This document shows, one piece after another, positions 56,469-64,000 of a DNA stretch of 64,000 nucleotides (position 1 is the first letter of the stretch; each line of letters starts with the position of its first letter). A program made the translations under genes and the position numbers. The notes beneath the pieces were generated by a model. The model ran no database searches. It had not been told where the DNA came from and worked only from the letters and a program-made list of their open reading frames with translations. This stretch comes from Candidatus Aquidulcis sp. (GTDB taxonomy: Bacteria > Chloroflexota > Anaerolineae > Anaerolineales > UBA4823), in the NCBI GenBank assembly GCA_020723385.1, contig DYIZ01000004.1:1-64000 (forward strand). Reading direction: 5' to 3'.

Positions 56469-56575
56469 AGTGATTGCCAGAGCCAGACGATCTTGGCGTA
56501 AGAAAATCGAAGGGACGATCCCAACTATCCGTACCTGCAAACACCATCTCTCTAATTTCCACCCAAAAGGCACCC

Positions 56576-58183
56576 ATGCTCCCTGAATCATTCGACCACC
56601 TCTTGGCCCAGGCCGACGCCTCTGCCCAGCGCGGCGACTGGCTGGCCGCTTTCGATCACTTGCAATCAGCCAACCGCCTGGTTCCAGATCATACCGGTGT
56701 GCTGACCGGCATGGGGACGTGCCTGATTCAGCTTTCGCGCGCCCCCGAAGCCATCCTATATTTCCAGCAGGTGACCGCCTTAGCCCCCGATTCCCCCGAG
56801 GCATTCAACAATCTTGGGGTGGCTCAGGCCCTCGACGGCCAGCTCGACGGGGCTGAAGCCGCTTACCAGCAGGCGATCACCCTCGCTCCTGAGCATCAGC
56901 AGGCTTGGAAGAATCTGGCGGTCGTTTATTTGCGGCAGGCGCGCTGGGAAGAAGGTGTACCCATCCTGGCAGCCCTGATCAAAGACCACCCGCAGGATGT
57001 GGAGAGCCTGGATTTGCTGGCGCAATGTTACGAGGCGGGCGGCGAAATCGAATCGGCCCGCGCGTTATACCAGCAGATCCTGTCGCTCGACAGTGAACAC
57101 GAAGCAGCCCGAGCGGCGCTGGCGCGCCTGACGCCGGCTGCATCTCCTGACCGCATCGCCCGACCGGAACACGCCAAAAAGTTGGCTGCGCTCAAAGGGT
57201 TGAAACAAGACGTTTCGGCGCAGGCCAGGGCAGCCCAATCGGTTGTGATCTATGCCCCCGATGAATTGGCTGACAGCGACCGGATGAAGAAGATGGCCGA
57301 GACGCTGGCGGGTGAGGGCTGGACGCCGCGCCTCTCACCGGCCTTCGACCCTGCCGACCTGGGACGCGACGATCTGCTCGTGTTCGCCCAGCCTCATTTC
57401 TCCGGCAACCTGCTCGCCGGCGTGAGCGCCTGCATCCAGTCTGGCAAGCCTTTCGCCATTGACCTGGTTCAAGACGACCGCTGCCTGCCGGTGGAACACC
57501 CGCTTTACAGTCAGCTTGGGCCGGGCAACCCGCGCGCCGCCCAGACGCTGGAAGTCATGCTGCGCGAGGCGCAGTGGGTGAGCCTGACTTCACCGGCGCT
57601 GGCTGAGCGTTTCCGTCCGCAGGCCAAAGAGGTCAAAGTCATCCTGCCGGCCTGGAGCCATGCCAACCCGCTTTGGGAGAAACCCTGCGCGCCGCACATC
57701 ACCCTCAACATTGGCTGGATCGGAAACCCCGCCGAACGCGGCGATTTGCTGGCGATCCGGCCTGACTTGCTCAAAATCCTGCGCGCCGTGCCGCAGTCGG
57801 CGCTGGTCATCGCCGGGGATGGGGGGGCTTACGAGCGCTTCCATGCCCTGCCCGAAGCGCGCCGCCAGTTTCTTCCAGCAGCCTCCTCCGGCGACATTCC
57901 CTATTTACTGGCGCAGCTCGATATATTGATCATCCCCTGGCGGGCCAGCCCCTGGAACCAGACCCGCTCCGACCAGCCGCTCATGCAGGCCGGGATTCGC
58001 CGCGTCCCCTGGGTAGCAACGCCTATCCCGGCTTATAAAGCCTGGGAAGCAGGCGGACTGTTCGCCGAAAAGGCTGGCGATTGGTACACCGCGTTGAAAA
58101 AATTGGCTTTAGATCCAGGCTTGCGCAAAGAACTGGGTGAGGCGGGGCGGGAGAAAGCGAAAGACCGCCAGCTGGCCGAGTGA
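56576..58183 (+). CDS. TPR-glycosyltransferase fusion protein
   Basis: 535 residues. N-terminal tetratricopeptide repeats (about 1-170: NNLGVAQALDGQLDGAEAAY and AWKNLAVVYLRQARWEEGVP and LAQCYEAGGEIESARALYQQ), then a GT-B-like glycosyltransferase half (about 215-535) with IGWIGNPAERGDLLAIRP, ALVIAGDGGAYERFHALPEA, and a LIIPWRASPWNQTRSDQPLM donor-type segment. Substrate unknown. ATG at 56576 is used because the predicted transcription start (about 56475) excludes the earlier in-frame start at 56474. First of three surface-glycan genes after the flagellar island. Confidence 0.8.
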   Translation: MLPESFDHLLAQADASAQRGDWLAAFDHLQSANRLVPDHTGVLTGMGTCLIQLSRAPEAILYFQQVTALAPDSPEAFNNLGVAQALDGQLDGAEAAYQQAITLAPEHQQAWKNLAVVYLRQARWEEGVPILAALIKDHPQDVESLDLLAQCYEAGGEIESARALYQQILSLDSEHEAARAALARLTPAASPDRIARPEHAKKLAALKGLKQDVSAQARAAQSVVIYAPDELADSDRMKKMAETLAGEGWTPRLSPAFDPADLGRDDLLVFAQPHFSGNLLAGVSACIQSGKPFAIDLVQDDRCLPVEHPLYSQLGPGNPRAAQTLEVMLREAQWVSLTSPALAERFRPQAKEVKVILPAWSHANPLWEKPCAPHITLNIGWIGNPAERGDLLAIRPDLLKILRAVPQSALVIAGDGGAYERFHALPEARRQFLPAASSGDIPYLLAQLDILIIPWRASPWNQTRSDQPLMQAGIRRVPWVATPIPAYKAWEAGGLFAEKAGDWYTALKKLALDPGLRKELGEAGREKAKDRQLAE

Positions 58184-58201
58184 TTAATTGGGTAAATTCC
58201 G

Positions 58202-61200
58202 ATGAATCCGAATCGTATCGCCATTCTCATCACCAATTACAACATGCCCGAGCGCGCCAACGCCCTGGTCGAAGCGATCCGGCAGCGGGTGAAATGGCCG
58301 CACGACCTGATCCTCGTGGACAACGGCTCCGATCTCGAGCCGCCCAGCCTATATACCACCCTGCGGCTGGCGAATAACATCCAGACCACCGGCGGGTGGC
58401 TGAAGGGTCTGGATTACGCCGGCCAACTGGCGCTCGAACACGGCGAGCCATATCTCGCTTATTGGTTCCTGATCACCTCCGCCGAATTTCTGCCCGGCGG
58501 CGGCGACCCATTAGCCCCGCTGGCCGAACTGCTGCTCAACGACCCCAATGCGGTCGGCGTTCATCCGGCGCTGGCCCCCGACAGCACGACCAATTGGGAG
58601 CATTTGGTTGCCCAGGGCGGCGACCAGCCTCGCCGGGCGTGGATGATTGACAACATTGCAAGCCTTTACCGCGCCGACTGGTTCGACAGCATTGGGCGCT
58701 TCGACCCGGCGTTGACCTTCGCTCACGGCATTGACCTGGAAACCTGCTGGAAAGCCCGCCGTGAGGGCCGCTCGTTGTGGGTTCACGAGGGCAGCCAGGT
58801 TAAGAAGATCAGCAACATTGGTTACACCATGAACCGCATGAACATGACCGCCTCCGACCGGGTGCGGCTGGCAAAAGAAAACATGGATGCCGTGCTCGGC
58901 CAGCGTTACGGTGCGGATTATTGGGAGCGGTTGATGAATGAGTATCGAGACTATGAACAGGTTCGTAGTGACGGCTTCTGCCGTCCTCCCGCGAATGCGA
59001 CTGAAGTCGCTACTACGAACCACACCCCCGTTCGCAGCGACGGCTTCAGCCGTCCTCCTGCGATGAATCCCGCCATCCTCCTCGTCGCCCACGGATTCCC
59101 GCCCAAAACCCTGGGCGGCGTGGAACTGTATACCTATTACCTGGCTCAGGAACTGAGCCAGCGCGGCCACCACGTGCGGGTGCTCTACCCCGAATGGGAC
59201 GACACCCGCCCGGCTGGTGAAATCGCCGAGGCCGTTTTCGACAATATCCCCGTAACGATCTTGAACCTGAATCGCTCGGCAAACCAGGCCGATACTTTCA
59301 AGAACGAGGCCGTCGCCGCCGTCATTGAGCGCTGCCTGTCAGAACTGAAGATTGACGTTGTGCACTTCAATCACCTGATCGGCGTATCGGCCTCAGCCTT
59401 GCACGCCTGCGCCCGGCTTGGCCTCCCAACCGTACTGACCCTGCACGATGGCTGGCTGCTGTGCGAGCAGATACACTTCAATCACCCTGATGGCCGGTTA
59501 TGTCCCGGCCCAGAAACGATAGACAACTGCGCCCAGTGCTTCGCCCAACGACATCCCGAGATCGCTGCACCTGGCAAACTCCCGGAAATCTATTACACCC
59601 TGGCGCTGCGCAGGGACTATTTGCAGCGCAGCCTGGGACTGATCCACACCATCACCGTCCCCACGCGTTTCCTGCGGGATCGCCTCGAAGAGTTTGGGTT
59701 TCAGCATCCCCGGGTCATTCTCGCCCCCCTGGGGCTGAAACCCTTCCCGCCGCTTCCGTTGATCCCCCGCCAGGGCCGGGTGCGCTTCACCTGCCTGGGA
59801 AGTATCTACCCCACGAAGGGTACGGATGTATTGATCCGCGCCTTCAACCAGGTTGACCCGCAGAAAGCGCAGCTCGACCTGTACGGCAATATCCTCGATC
59901 CTGGCTACTACGAGAAAACTATGGCTTTGATCGAGCCGGGGCAGCCGGTGACCTATCACGGCAGCTATACGCCTGGTGATCTACCCGCTATCCTTTCCCA
60001 AACCGACGTGGCTGTGGTTCCCTCGCGCAGCGAAAACTACCCCACCGTTGTGCGCGAGTGTCTTCATGCCGGAACGCCGGTCATCGGGCCGGAAGTCGGC
60101 GGCGTGCCGGAGATTATCCAGGACGGCGACAACGGCCTTCTTTTTCGGGTGGGCGATGACGCCGATTTGGCCGGGAAGATCAATTTCATCGTAGAAACCC
60201 CGGATGTTATCGCCCTCCTGCGCCGGCGCATCCAGCCGGTGAGAACTATCGCCGAAGATGCGGATTGGTACGCTGGGCTGTACCGCCAGATTCTGGATGG
60301 CGATACTGCTTCGCCGTTAGCCCTCGACCGCCTCACCTCGATCCAGACAGATCTGTTCAGCCAGGCGCGCCAATTGCAGGCTGATCTTGTTCAGGCGCAT
60401 GATACCGAGAAAGCCCAACAGCGCCAGCTCGATTTCTGGCAGCGCCAGCTTGCAAACCGGGAAGCCGAAGATGCCCAGCATCGCCGCGCCCGCCGCCAGA
60501 TTTCGGAACGCGTGGATTTGGTGCGCGCCCAATTGGGCGGCGATGCGGCCTCCCCCGGCGACCTGCCAGCCTGCCGCCAGCCCTATGACATTCTGATCCC
60601 GATCTACAACGCCCGCGAACACGTTCAGCGCTGTGTGGAGAGCGTCATCCGGCATACGGACCCCGTTCACCCGGTTTACCTGCTCGATGATGCCAGCCCC
60701 GACCCGGCTATCCTGCCGCTGTTGTATGACTTCGAGCGCAATCACCCCCAGGTCAAAGTCGTCCCCTCCGAGTGCAATGGCGGCTTTATCGCCAACATCA
60801 ACCGCGGCTTTGGGTTGTCGCGCAACCCGGTCGTGATCCTCAATTCCGATACGGAAGTCACGCCCGGCTGGCTGGAACGGCTGGATCGCTGCGCGGCCAG
60901 CGACCCGCGCATCGGGATTGTGTCACCCCTCTCGAATAACGCCACACTCCTCTCGGTTCCAGAGATGAACGCCGCCAACCATCTGCCGGATGGGGTGACT
61001 CCCACCCGGGCGGCGGAAATCGTCGCCCGGGTCTCGCCGCGCGCCTATCCGCGCCTGCCGACTGCGGTCGGTTTTTGTATGCTCATCACCCGCCAAACGC
61101 TGGATTGCATCGGGGAATTCGACCTGGCTTTCGGGCTGGGCTATGGCGAGGAGAACGATTTTTGTATGCGCGCCTGGCAGGCCGGGTTCGAGACGGCTGC

Positions 61201-62941
61201 CTGCGATGACGCCTACGTTCACCATTACGGCGAGGCCTCCTTCAGCCAGGTCAAACAGATTGACGCCCGCCGCTTGCGCAACCAGGCGCTGCTCGACAAG
61301 CGTTGGCCGCAATATCACCACACCGTGCGCGCTTACTGTCACCTGAATCCCTTACGGTTGGTGCAGGAGCGCCTGGAAGCCGCCATACACCGGCGCGCCG
61401 GCGAGGCCCGCCCGCACGTGCTGCACGTCATTCACAGCTACGGCGTGCTGGCCGGCACGGAGTTGTTTACCAAAAACCTGGCAGATGGGCTGGCGGAGAG
61501 CTATCGTTCGACCGTTTTCTACCCCGTTGCGCAGCCTGACCTGTGGACCGACATCACCAGCGAGCGGCTCAACGAGCACACCCGGCTGCTCCGCATCAGC
61601 CGCGAGAACGCCGTTCCGAAAGATTATTTCTCCGGTTTCCCCGCCGAGCTGACCAACAGCGTGATGGAAACGAGCTTCGCCCGTGTCCTCGCCGGGGGCG
61701 ATTACGATATCGTCCATTTCCAACACCTGGGCGGCTGGCCGACGCTGCTCTTGCCGTTCATTGCCAAATCTTTCGGCAAAATCGTTATCCTGTCGCTGCA
61801 CGATTATTTCCTGCTCTGCCCAGAATACCATTTGGTGCTGCCCGAAGCGCGGCGCTGCGGCAAGCCCGGCGTCCAGCCGGATGACGCCGAATGCCAGCGC
61901 TGCCTGGCAGCCAAGCGATACACGCCCTCCGGGATGCAGACCCCGCTGACGGAATACCTGGCCGAACGGGCCGCTATTACCCGGCAGATCGTCGAAGCTG
62001 TGGATGTAATCATAGCGCCTTCGATTTTTGTGCGCAATCGTTATGTGCAAGCCTACGGCGAGGCGATTTCCGGCAAGATCGTCGTCATCCCGCATGGGGT
62101 AGACGTTCCCCGCCGCAGCCCGCGCCCGCCGCGCCAAAAGACTCTGCGTGTAGCCTTTCTGGGCAACATGACCGACCGCAAAGGGGGCCATGTTCTGCTG
62201 GAGGCGGCGCGCAAGCTGCGCGGCAAGCCCGTGCGGTTCGAGGTCTTCGGCAATGTACAGCCGGAATTCGTGGACGCGGCGGCCCAGGCTGGTGTGATCC
62301 TGCACGGCCCTTACCGGCCCGAAACGCTGCCCCGGCTGCTGGCCGGGGTTGACCTGGCGGCGATTCTATCGGTGGTGGACGAGGTGTTCTGCCTGACGTT
62401 GAGCGAGGCCCAGGCGATGGGCGTGCCGGTGATCGCCTCGTCTGTGGGGGCGATGAGCGAGCGGGTTGTGGATGGGCTGACCGGTTTCCTCGTTCCGCCG
62501 GGCGACGCAGATGCGCTCGCCGACCGGCTGCTGGCTTTGGCTGCCGATGCCCGCTCATTGCAGCCGGTCATCGCCGGGCTGGCGGCGCTGAAAGTCAAGT
62601 CAACGGCTGAAAACGTGGCAGATTATGGGCGTCTCTATGCAGAAATGTTGGGGGGACGCGGCGTCGAGTCGCAATGGCTGCGCTCGGTGCTCGCAGGGGG
62701 CGCGTCACACCCCGTTGAGCAGGCCGACCCTGGGACCGTCTTGCAAGCCTTGCTGGAAAGCGACGATTTGCCCGCCGCGCTGGAAGCGAACCACAGCCGC
62801 CTGAATGCCGGCTTGCTGGCGTTGGTGCGCCTGAACGCCAGCGCCGCCCGCGCCGATGGGGACGCCGAACTGGCCGAGGGTCTCGGGGCGCTGGGGGAGT
62901 ATATCGAGAGAGTGGTCTTCAACGGAATTCGAGCGGAGTAG
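58202..62941 (+). CDS. Giant multidomain glycosyltransferase
   Basis: 1579 residues. Four glycosyltransferase modules in order: GT2-like (about 1-250: AILITNYNMPERANALVEAI, LVDNGSD), a GT4 (about 288-700: HGFPPKTLGGVELYTYYLAQ, PSRSENYPTVVRECLHAGTP), a Gln/Arg-rich helical spacer (about 715-775), a GT2 (about 793-1050: YDILIPIYNA, ILNSDTEVTPGWLERLDR, LGYGEENDF), a second GT4 (about 1072-1490: GVLAGTELFTKNLADGL, LSEAQAMGVPVIASSVGAMS), and a helical tail. Residues 254-287 are coded by repeat DNA (see the repeat entry). The second module opens with a natural-looking start, MNPAILLVAHGF (M288). Likely builds a multi-sugar surface or flagellin glycan; no substrate can be named. Confidence 0.88.
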   Translation: MNPNRIAILITNYNMPERANALVEAIRQRVKWPHDLILVDNGSDLEPPSLYTTLRLANNIQTTGGWLKGLDYAGQLALEHGEPYLAYWFLITSAEFLPGGGDPLAPLAELLLNDPNAVGVHPALAPDSTTNWEHLVAQGGDQPRRAWMIDNIASLYRADWFDSIGRFDPALTFAHGIDLETCWKARREGRSLWVHEGSQVKKISNIGYTMNRMNMTASDRVRLAKENMDAVLGQRYGADYWERLMNEYRDYEQVRSDGFCRPPANATEVATTNHTPVRSDGFSRPPAMNPAILLVAHGFPPKTLGGVELYTYYLAQELSQRGHHVRVLYPEWDDTRPAGEIAEAVFDNIPVTILNLNRSANQADTFKNEAVAAVIERCLSELKIDVVHFNHLIGVSASALHACARLGLPTVLTLHDGWLLCEQIHFNHPDGRLCPGPETIDNCAQCFAQRHPEIAAPGKLPEIYYTLALRRDYLQRSLGLIHTITVPTRFLRDRLEEFGFQHPRVILAPLGLKPFPPLPLIPRQGRVRFTCLGSIYPTKGTDVLIRAFNQVDPQKAQLDLYGNILDPGYYEKTMALIEPGQPVTYHGSYTPGDLPAILSQTDVAVVPSRSENYPTVVRECLHAGTPVIGPEVGGVPEIIQDGDNGLLFRVGDDADLAGKINFIVETPDVIALLRRRIQPVRTIAEDADWYAGLYRQILDGDTASPLALDRLTSIQTDLFSQARQLQADLVQAHDTEKAQQRQLDFWQRQLANREAEDAQHRRARRQISERVDLVRAQLGGDAASPGDLPACRQPYDILIPIYNAREHVQRCVESVIRHTDPVHPVYLLDDASPDPAILPLLYDFERNHPQVKVVPSECNGGFIANINRGFGLSRNPVVILNSDTEVTPGWLERLDRCAASDPRIGIVSPLSNNATLLSVPEMNAANHLPDGVTPTRAAEIVARVSPRAYPRLPTAVGFCMLITRQTLDCIGEFDLAFGLGYGEENDFCMRAWQAGFETAACDDAYVHHYGEASFSQVKQIDARRLRNQALLDKRWPQYHHTVRAYCHLNPLRLVQERLEAAIHRRAGEARPHVLHVIHSYGVLAGTELFTKNLADGLAESYRSTVFYPVAQPDLWTDITSERLNEHTRLLRISRENAVPKDYFSGFPAELTNSVMETSFARVLAGGDYDIVHFQHLGGWPTLLLPFIAKSFGKIVILSLHDYFLLCPEYHLVLPEARRCGKPGVQPDDAECQRCLAAKRYTPSGMQTPLTEYLAERAAITRQIVEAVDVIIAPSIFVRNRYVQAYGEAISGKIVVIPHGVDVPRRSPRPPRQKTLRVAFLGNMTDRKGGHVLLEAARKLRGKPVRFEVFGNVQPEFVDAAAQAGVILHGPYRPETLPRLLAGVDLAAILSVVDEVFCLTLSEAQAMGVPVIASSVGAMSERVVDGLTGFLVPPGDADALADRLLALAADARSLQPVIAGLAALKVKSTAENVADYGRLYAEMLGGRGVESQWLRSVLAGGASHPVEQADPGTVLQALLESDDLPAALEANHSRLNAGLLALVRLNASAARADGDAELAEGLGALGEYIERVVFNGIRAE
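58961..59063 (+). repeat. Repeat DNA within the glycosyltransferase gene
   Basis: A 34-nt unit (58961-58994) is repeated with five or so changes at 59030-59063. The ends GTTCGTAGT (58961-58969) and ACTACGAAC (59012-59020) are exact reverse complements, and inner GACTGAAGTC is palindromic. The element is read in frame as linker residues 254-287. This looks like a dispersed 'gacttcagtc' repeat that merged two adjacent genes. Confidence 0.8.
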
Positions 62942-63105: not shown

Positions 63106-64000
63106 ATGACCCAACTGGCCACCCATTCCCCCACCGATTTGAACGCCAGGAAGGCGCTTGGCCGGACGCATTTAAGCGAGAACCGGATCGAAGACGCCCT
63201 CCGCGTGTATGCCAGCATCTTGCGGGACTACCCCAATGATGTGGATTCTTACCTGGTCCTGGGGGATTGTTATCTGGCCGATGGGGATAACCGCTCCGCG
63301 AGTATTTTTTACTCCCAAGCGCTGAAACTGACTCCGACCAGCCTGGATATTCACCGCCGGCTGCGCCTGGCTGATGATGAGTGTGAAACGCCCTCCGGGG
63401 TCGTCCCTTCCGACCCGCGTGCGGTCGCCGACATGCTGCAACACCTGACGGGCCGCCCGACGCCGGTCAGCGATGCCGAGGTCAGCCGGGCAGCCAGCCT
63501 GTTGGATGAAATCGTCAATTGCCCGCACCCGGCGCAGGCGGTAGCCGAACACTTGAACGAGATTGACGCGCTGCTCCCGGCGCTGTTGGAGTTGAATATC
63601 CGCCAGGCGCGCTCGGATGGCCGCCCCGATCTGGCGCAGGCGCTGCAAAGTCTGTTGAATCACATTCACTTGCAAATGGACGAGCCAGCTTCCACTGGTG
63701 CGGAGTCCGGGCCGCCGCTGCAATTGCTCGCTGGCAGCAGAACAAAAGCAAAGCTGGTTCCGGCTGAGACGAGAATCCTGCTTCTCTCCGGGGCAGAGGA
63801 GACGCTCTCTTTCCGCCGATCCCTTTCGGCTGAGTCGCTTTCTGCTCTCGGCTGCCAACTCATCCGGGCGAAGGATTTTCCCTCCGAGCCGGGCGCCTTC
63901 GATATTGCTATCGTCCACAACCCGCACTGCACGCCTCACCTCATGGCTGGAATGGCCGGTTGCACGGCTTCTGGAACGCCGGTGATCGTGGATCTCGATC
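63106..64000 (+). CDS. TPR protein, probable glycosyltransferase (partial, runs off the window)
   Basis: 298 residues visible with no stop before the right edge. Begins MTQLATHSPTDLNARKALGR. Tetratricopeptide repeats at about 12-85 (VYASILRDYPNDVDSYLVLG, YSQALKLTPTSLDIHRRL), then a helical region, then from about 224 a Rossmann-like start (TRILLLSGAEETLSFRRSLS; FDIAIVHNPHCTPHLMAGMA). The last part aligns in pattern with the start of the glycosyltransferase half of the 56576 gene, so they look like paralogues. GAAGGT ahead of the ATG is a weak ribosome site. Confidence 0.75.
   Translation, partial: MTQLATHSPTDLNARKALGRTHLSENRIEDALRVYASILRDYPNDVDSYLVLGDCYLADGDNRSASIFYSQALKLTPTSLDIHRRLRLADDECETPSGVVPSDPRAVADMLQHLTGRPTPVSDAEVSRAASLLDEIVNCPHPAQAVAEHLNEIDALLPALLELNIRQARSDGRPDLAQALQSLLNHIHLQMDEPASTGAESGPPLQLLAGSRTKAKLVPAETRILLLSGAEETLSFRRSLSAESLSALGCQLIRAKDFPSEPGAFDIAIVHNPHCTPHLMAGMAGCTASGTPVIVDLD

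Follow-up and report, generated by a model that had tools for sequence, protein, structure and literature searches.

Organization of the locus

The gene considered here occupies 58202-62941 (+) of the window, a 64,000-nucleotide stretch of Candidatus Aquidulcis sp. DNA (contig DYIZ01000004.1), and is open over 1579 codons, giving a product of 1579 amino acids. Pfam finds GT4 (residues 305-667), GT2 (from residue 797) and GT4 (to residue 1449) domains within residues 288-1579, in modules 2, 3 and 4 respectively (Table 1). Residues 1-253, or module 1, have no Pfam match even at E ≤ 1, GT2 profiles included, and no PHROG match. The first-pass annotation had described the protein as GT2-GT4-GT2-GT4, and this description stands for modules 2-4; a GT-A fold is predicted for module 1, but module 1 has no GT2 family match and is of a virus-type family rather than an ordinary bacterial GT2 (see below). 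The GC3 and codon bias of module 1 equal those of the rest of the gene, and codon bias is 0.02 in the first linker versus 0.21-0.25 on either side. No repeat was found in the second linker, and the C-terminal region does not match the downstream TPR-glycosyltransferase protein.

The region upstream encodes CheA, CheB, CheR, CheD, CheX, FlhA, FliM and FlgK. The downstream order is the paralogous TPR-glycosyltransferase, another glycosyltransferase and an FGE-sulfatase-type protein, and then flagellin, FliD, FliF, FliG and FliH, so that the four-module gene lies about 4-5 kb ahead of fliC and fliD. Positions 65-64000 of the window together with locus L098 make up an extensive flagellar and chemotaxis region, FliK included. 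The upstream TPR-glycosyltransferase ends about 17 residues short of its paralogue (window 58150-58215), and right after its stop another frame reads VINWVN, like the missing tail; a frameshift or truncation at the point where module 1 was inserted is therefore possible.

Table 1. Features of the four-module gene and its neighbours (window positions unless marked as contig positions)
Feature	Position	Strand	Evidence
Upstream TPR and glycosyltransferase gene, same cluster	56474..58183	+	Pfam TPR; 41% identical to downstream paralogue over 317 aa
Module 1, virus-type glycosyltransferase of predicted GT-A fold, residues 1-253	58202..58960	+	Full length against standalone viral homologues
REPIN-like element, complete, 60-bp inverted pair of GTAG-tagged palindromes	58961..59020	+	In-frame reading VRSDGFCRPPANATEVATTN
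9-nt spacer CACACCCCC separating REPIN and second half-element	59021..59029	+	Sequence
Second half-element (single REP), read as VRSDGFSRPPA	59030..59063	+	Sequence, BLAST, pattern match
Module 2, GT4, residues 288 to about 705	59063..60316	+	Pfam Glyco_transf_4 and Glycos_transf_1
Second linker, residues about 706-789	60317..60568	+	Translation inspected: helical/coiled-coil-like by eye
Module 3, GT2, residues about 790-1065	60569..61396	+	Pfam Glycos_transf_2
Module 4, GT4, residues about 1066-1485	61397..62656	+	Pfam Glyco_trans_1_4 at 1316-1449
C-terminal region	62657..62941	+	No domain match (Pfam)
Downstream TPR and glycosyltransferase gene	63106..64000, running on to contig position 64764	+	Pfam, paralogue comparison
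Flagellin, fliC	contig 66963-67880 (L098)		
fliD	contig 67976-69634 (L098)		

The first linker is repeat DNA

The 34 residues that join modules 1 and 2 (254-287) are encoded wholly by repeat DNA. They had been noticed in the first-pass annotation as the reading of a 34-nt unit present twice and flanked by inverted ends. Both observations hold: the units at 58961-58994 and 59030-59063 are about 88% alike in direct comparison, and the ends, GTTCGTAGT (58961-58969) and ACTACGAAC (59012-59020), form a 60-bp inverted pair. The sequence of this pair, GTTCGTAGTGACGGCTTCTGCCGTC-CTCCCGCGAAT-GCGACTGAAGTCGCTACTACGAAC, sets two GTAG-tagged palindromes face to face, at 58961-58985 and, inverted, at 58997-59020; the palindrome has the form GTTC-GTAG-T followed by GACGGCTTCNGCCGTC. 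The second half-element also matches other repeat copies by BLAST, and its homology to the first copy stops at the A of ATG-288. The linker RNA is predicted to fold at -51.9 kcal/mol, with z = -4.7 relative to shuffled sequences.

That the repeat is dispersed, as had been supposed, is evident from the rest of the genome, where the half-element pattern occurs at 36 sites (≤3 mismatches) versus none for the reversed pattern, and where BLAST places about 25 repeat-related copies. Most of the clusters examined are convergent pairs, that is, dispersed inverted pairs. The repeat is also matched in 13 other genomes among 60 relatives, some of which carry 90-118 half-sites, and the GTAG is retained in nearly all listed copies, in the relatives too. 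Judged from its sequence, the repeat fits the GTAG class of REPs/REPINs, which occurs in several phyla, Chloroflexi among them (PMC3733652). The genome has six Y1 transposase (PF01797) loci, on contigs C176, C169, C66, C74, C95 and C133 (L117-L122). No RAYT (Y1 transposase) was found beside the repeat as its candidate mobiliser: the GTAG repeat was not detected in the examined flanks of any of the six.

Copies of the repeat also sit in frame inside other genes of the genome. One lies within CofE, the F420 ligase (L102:662-1474, +), where the CofE Pfam match (12-248) spans the insert at 122-141. Another lies within the C-terminal DUF3459 domain of an alpha-amylase (L106:787-2001, -; insert 326-351), and a third in the 3' half of a nucleotidyltransferase-like gene (L099:854-2101, +). 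These inserts add 20-31 residues and share one common peptide, VRSD(G/D)FSR..., which in CofE and the alpha-amylase reads VRSD(G/D)FSRP...AATT. The recurrence of this peptide in unrelated genes makes translation through the repeat plausible. It also argues that the linker is repeat DNA and not conserved protein: the alternative of a conserved linker, which would have undermined the first-pass reading, was rejected, since homologues of the enzyme do not share the linker, and the same peptide appears at REP copies elsewhere in this genome, in proteins unrelated to the enzyme. As some copies lie inside intact domains, a repeat could also have entered a fusion that already existed, a possibility taken up below.

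Module 1 belongs to a virus-type family

An AlphaFold2 model of module 1, built on 19 homologues, has a mean pLDDT of 94.4, a pTM of 0.92 and a GT-A fold. Among solved structures, polypeptide GalNAc-transferases match it best through their GT-A domains (E about 1e-10 in the PDB), and the predicted fold can be assigned with confidence. In the viral structure library the best match is a glycosyl transferase family 2 protein of Pithovirus LCPAC302 (A0A481Z8F6), 48% identical over module 1; this is a 625-aa giant-virus protein, and its context differs from that of module 1.

The close relatives are viral. A single-sequence search of IMG/VR with module 1 returned 30 contigs (best-segment identity 55-65%), and an alignment profile search returned 47 module-1 loci, some of them near-identical copies. 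The complete viral genes stand alone and measure 220-268 aa between the beginning of the match and the stop (typically about 245 aa), apart from one truncated in-frame case. In 18 of the 30 viral loci the module-1 homologue immediately follows a gene for the major head protein, and in others it adjoins a glycosyltransferase; a methyltransferase-like gene usually follows, with more glycosyltransferases close by. The module-1 sequence of the window is 53-63% identical to 18 representative relatives, which are 49-98% identical among themselves, and 47 columns are invariant over the full-length alignment of these 19 family sequences. Its score with the family profile is 418.9 bits, the profile itself including the window sequence. 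The viral members (L054-L083, L161-L207) form a coherent family that has neither a Pfam nor a PHROG model, and this family possibly serves virion glycosylation. In the exceptional case (L083, 2305-3759; also L202), a module-1 homologue, cut short at about 190 aa, continues in frame as a different gene whose start reads MKILLFCPTYN. This join is probably a deletion fusion, and the family would seem to tolerate or suffer such joins.

Cellular members are scarce. A single-sequence pattern scan of 84,980 GTDB bacterial and archaeal species genomes gave one further locus (L031). That locus is a 5-kb contig (JAOZOT010000274.1) in an Anaerolineae MAG, with UvsX and RuvC-like genes and a glycosyltransferase cassette, and it is phage-like. 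In 400 genomes of the phylum, searched both by sequence and by profile, no module-1 member turned up beyond the window, and none was found in 60 relatives, in plasmids or in named phages; phylum matches at 19-27 bits were rejected as generic GT2-like proteins. Because the cellular scans used short exact patterns or sampled genomes, rare cellular members may have been missed. In a tree, the module 1 of the window falls inside the viral diversity, though its placement among the viral sequences has no support. Module 1 thus looks like a virus-type family and not an ordinary bacterial GT2, and since its GC3 equals that of the rest of the gene, the transfer was not obviously recent.

Both sides of the junction occur as separate genes

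The expectation that relatives would have split genes was borne out, with module 1 standing alone in viruses and the GT4 module standing alone in other genomes. Module 2 relatives in other genomes of the class are standalone GT4 proteins of about 440-517 aa, and their alignments begin 4-5 query residues after M288; a search of viral contigs for the GT4 module found none. A counterpart of modules 3-4 by themselves is a 689-aa open reading frame (L152; 41% identity over residues 790-1482), and the protein therefore has at least three ancestral units. Among the joins of these units, only the first is repeat-derived. The contig that carries the 689-aa frame is 436 kb long and is classed as viral in IMG/VR; it may come from a very large phage, or else be cellular DNA within the viral set.

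The boundaries of the first junction can be placed closely. Viral homologues end 18-20 residues past a conserved YG, and the window protein has 18 residues past it and then the repeat. On the 3' side the repeat abuts the GT4 start codon, and standalone GT4 proteins begin at the equivalent of M288 ('MKILMAVHHFPP' in L085, 'MKILLTARRF' in L095), in agreement with the early impression that M288 looks like a natural gene start. Given the natural C-terminal length of module 1 and the natural GT4 start at M288, only repeat lies between the two.

Probable origin of the fusion

The gene is probably a composite glycosyltransferase, in which a virus-type gene and a host GT4-GT2-GT4 gene were fused through the REP/REPIN at their junction. 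A virus-type GT-A gene would have come to sit directly upstream of the host gene, within a cluster for flagellin glycosylation. The virus-type gene would have lost its stop codon to a GTAG-tagged REP/REPIN that was present, or inserted, precisely at its 3' end, and the repeat, being open in its phase, would then have supplied an in-frame linker of 34 residues and yielded the single 1579-aa protein. The head of the repeat, GTTCGTAGTGA, meets TAG in one phase and is open in the other two, and a landing at a 3' end could therefore fuse neighbouring genes in one step. GTAG REPs are often found near the 3' ends of genes, where they supply a TAG stop to flanking open reading frames (PMC3733652). The least costly account would place a REP(IN) at the 3' end of module 1, with loss of that module's stop as the result.

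The fusion might instead have come first, by stop-codon loss or overlap, with a REPIN and a REP inserted in frame later to decorate the linker. This order of events is unlikely, although it has a basis in the REPINs that lie in frame inside CofE and the DUF3459 domain of the alpha-amylase with the same peptide, and in described intragenic REP dimers coding 20-30 residues (PMC3733652). Against it, no residual linker lies outside the repeat, which begins at the point where the viral homologues finish and extends as far as the GT4 start codon, and REPs favour the 3' ends of genes (PMC3733652).

Less likely still, the frame may hold two separately translated genes that share a phase through an intergenic REPIN, with the GT4 protein starting at M288 and the fused product arising as minor read-through. 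REPs at the N-terminal end of annotated open reading frames are often extragenic, with translation starting downstream (PMC3733652), and M288 agrees with natural GT4 starts. However, no stop codon is left, so that ribosomes coming from module 1 must continue. In addition, the Shine-Dalgarno match at M288 is 2 nt, while a match of 4 nt or more precedes about 54% of 28 window genes, and ATG-288 is located in the stable repeat hairpin, at its foot. Independent initiation therefore looks weak, but the Shine-Dalgarno argument is itself a weak point because many window genes also have no clear one. An assembly or sequencing artefact (a mis-join through the repeat, or an error masking a stop or frameshift) is very improbable: the genome is a draft of 239 contigs with 4.5% estimated contamination, and dispersed repeats are typical mis-join points, but one mis-join at the repeat would not suffice when the same glycan cluster lies upstream of module 1, GC3 and codon bias agree on both sides, 1579 codons are open, and the context is flagellar on both sides.

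Fusion through the repeat is also what the first-pass annotation had proposed, with two genes joined in frame via a dispersed repeat. Much of that proposal stands, in that the linker is a dispersed repeat, both sides are separate elsewhere and there is no extra linker; calling the fusion repeat-mediated is likely to be right, with the order of events unproven. The fusion is present in one genome only, the sole member of its genus among the relatives searched, and no unfused sister was seen there, which is why the order cannot be read from comparison. What the data show directly is the open frame, the repeat nature of the linker DNA, the viral distribution of module 1, the modules as separate genes elsewhere and the flagellar surroundings; we infer the order of events, as well as the virus-to-host direction, expression as a single protein and the acceptor.

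Function, related systems and implications

Because the gene lies near fliC in a flagellar and chemotaxis region, the fusion protein is likely a flagellin-glycosylation enzyme, and the simplest function suggested by this position is flagellin O-glycan assembly. The four transferase modules would add successive sugars to the flagellin glycan or to another surface glycan.

Each part has known counterparts. GTAG REPs/REPINs (PMC3733652; PMC3116915) and the Rickettsia palindromic elements are likewise dispersed GTAG palindromes, mostly in inverted pairs, some of them in frame and coding 20-30 residues; the described cases decorate one gene, whereas here the repeat is the whole junction of two proteins of different origin. 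By analogy, the gene may be compared with FgtA/PA1091 of Pseudomonas aeruginosa and CD0240/CD0244 of C. difficile, also in flagellin-glycosylation clusters, where PA1091 unites in a single gene functions that C. difficile keeps separate (PMC11833859). PA1091 combines a GT2 with a phosphotransferase (PMC11833859), in contrast to four glycosyltransferase modules, one of them virus-type, and a repeat-coded linker. Flagellin glycosylation islands likewise have GT2 and GT4 genes and accessory genes beside fliC but, as far as the accessible portions of these accounts go, their glycosyltransferases are separate single-family genes and no repeat-coded linker is described (PMC4875605, PMC5109656). The literature searched, which lay mostly outside subscription journals, held no precedent for a REPIN-coded junction uniting a virus-type and a host glycosyltransferase. 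The parts, intragenic REPs and fused flagellin glycosyltransferases, are thus of known kinds; the combination is new.

The locus is a tangible example of a multi-domain enzyme whose linker peptide comes from mobile palindromic DNA, and of a host enzyme, encoded near flagellin, that has gained as one of its domains a glycosyltransferase of a family met elsewhere in viruses. The analysis also defines a viral glycosyltransferase family that has no Pfam or PHROG model, and two questions can now be put to the test: what part REPs play in creating fusions, as opposed to merely decorating proteins, and whether hosts reuse virion-glycan enzymes. More tentatively, REPINs may act as phase-dependent gene welders, one of which here might have domesticated a virus-encoded glycosyltransferase from a virion cluster, making it the leading domain of an enzyme with which the host glycosylates its flagellin; the surface recognised by flagellum-binding phages might have changed as a result.
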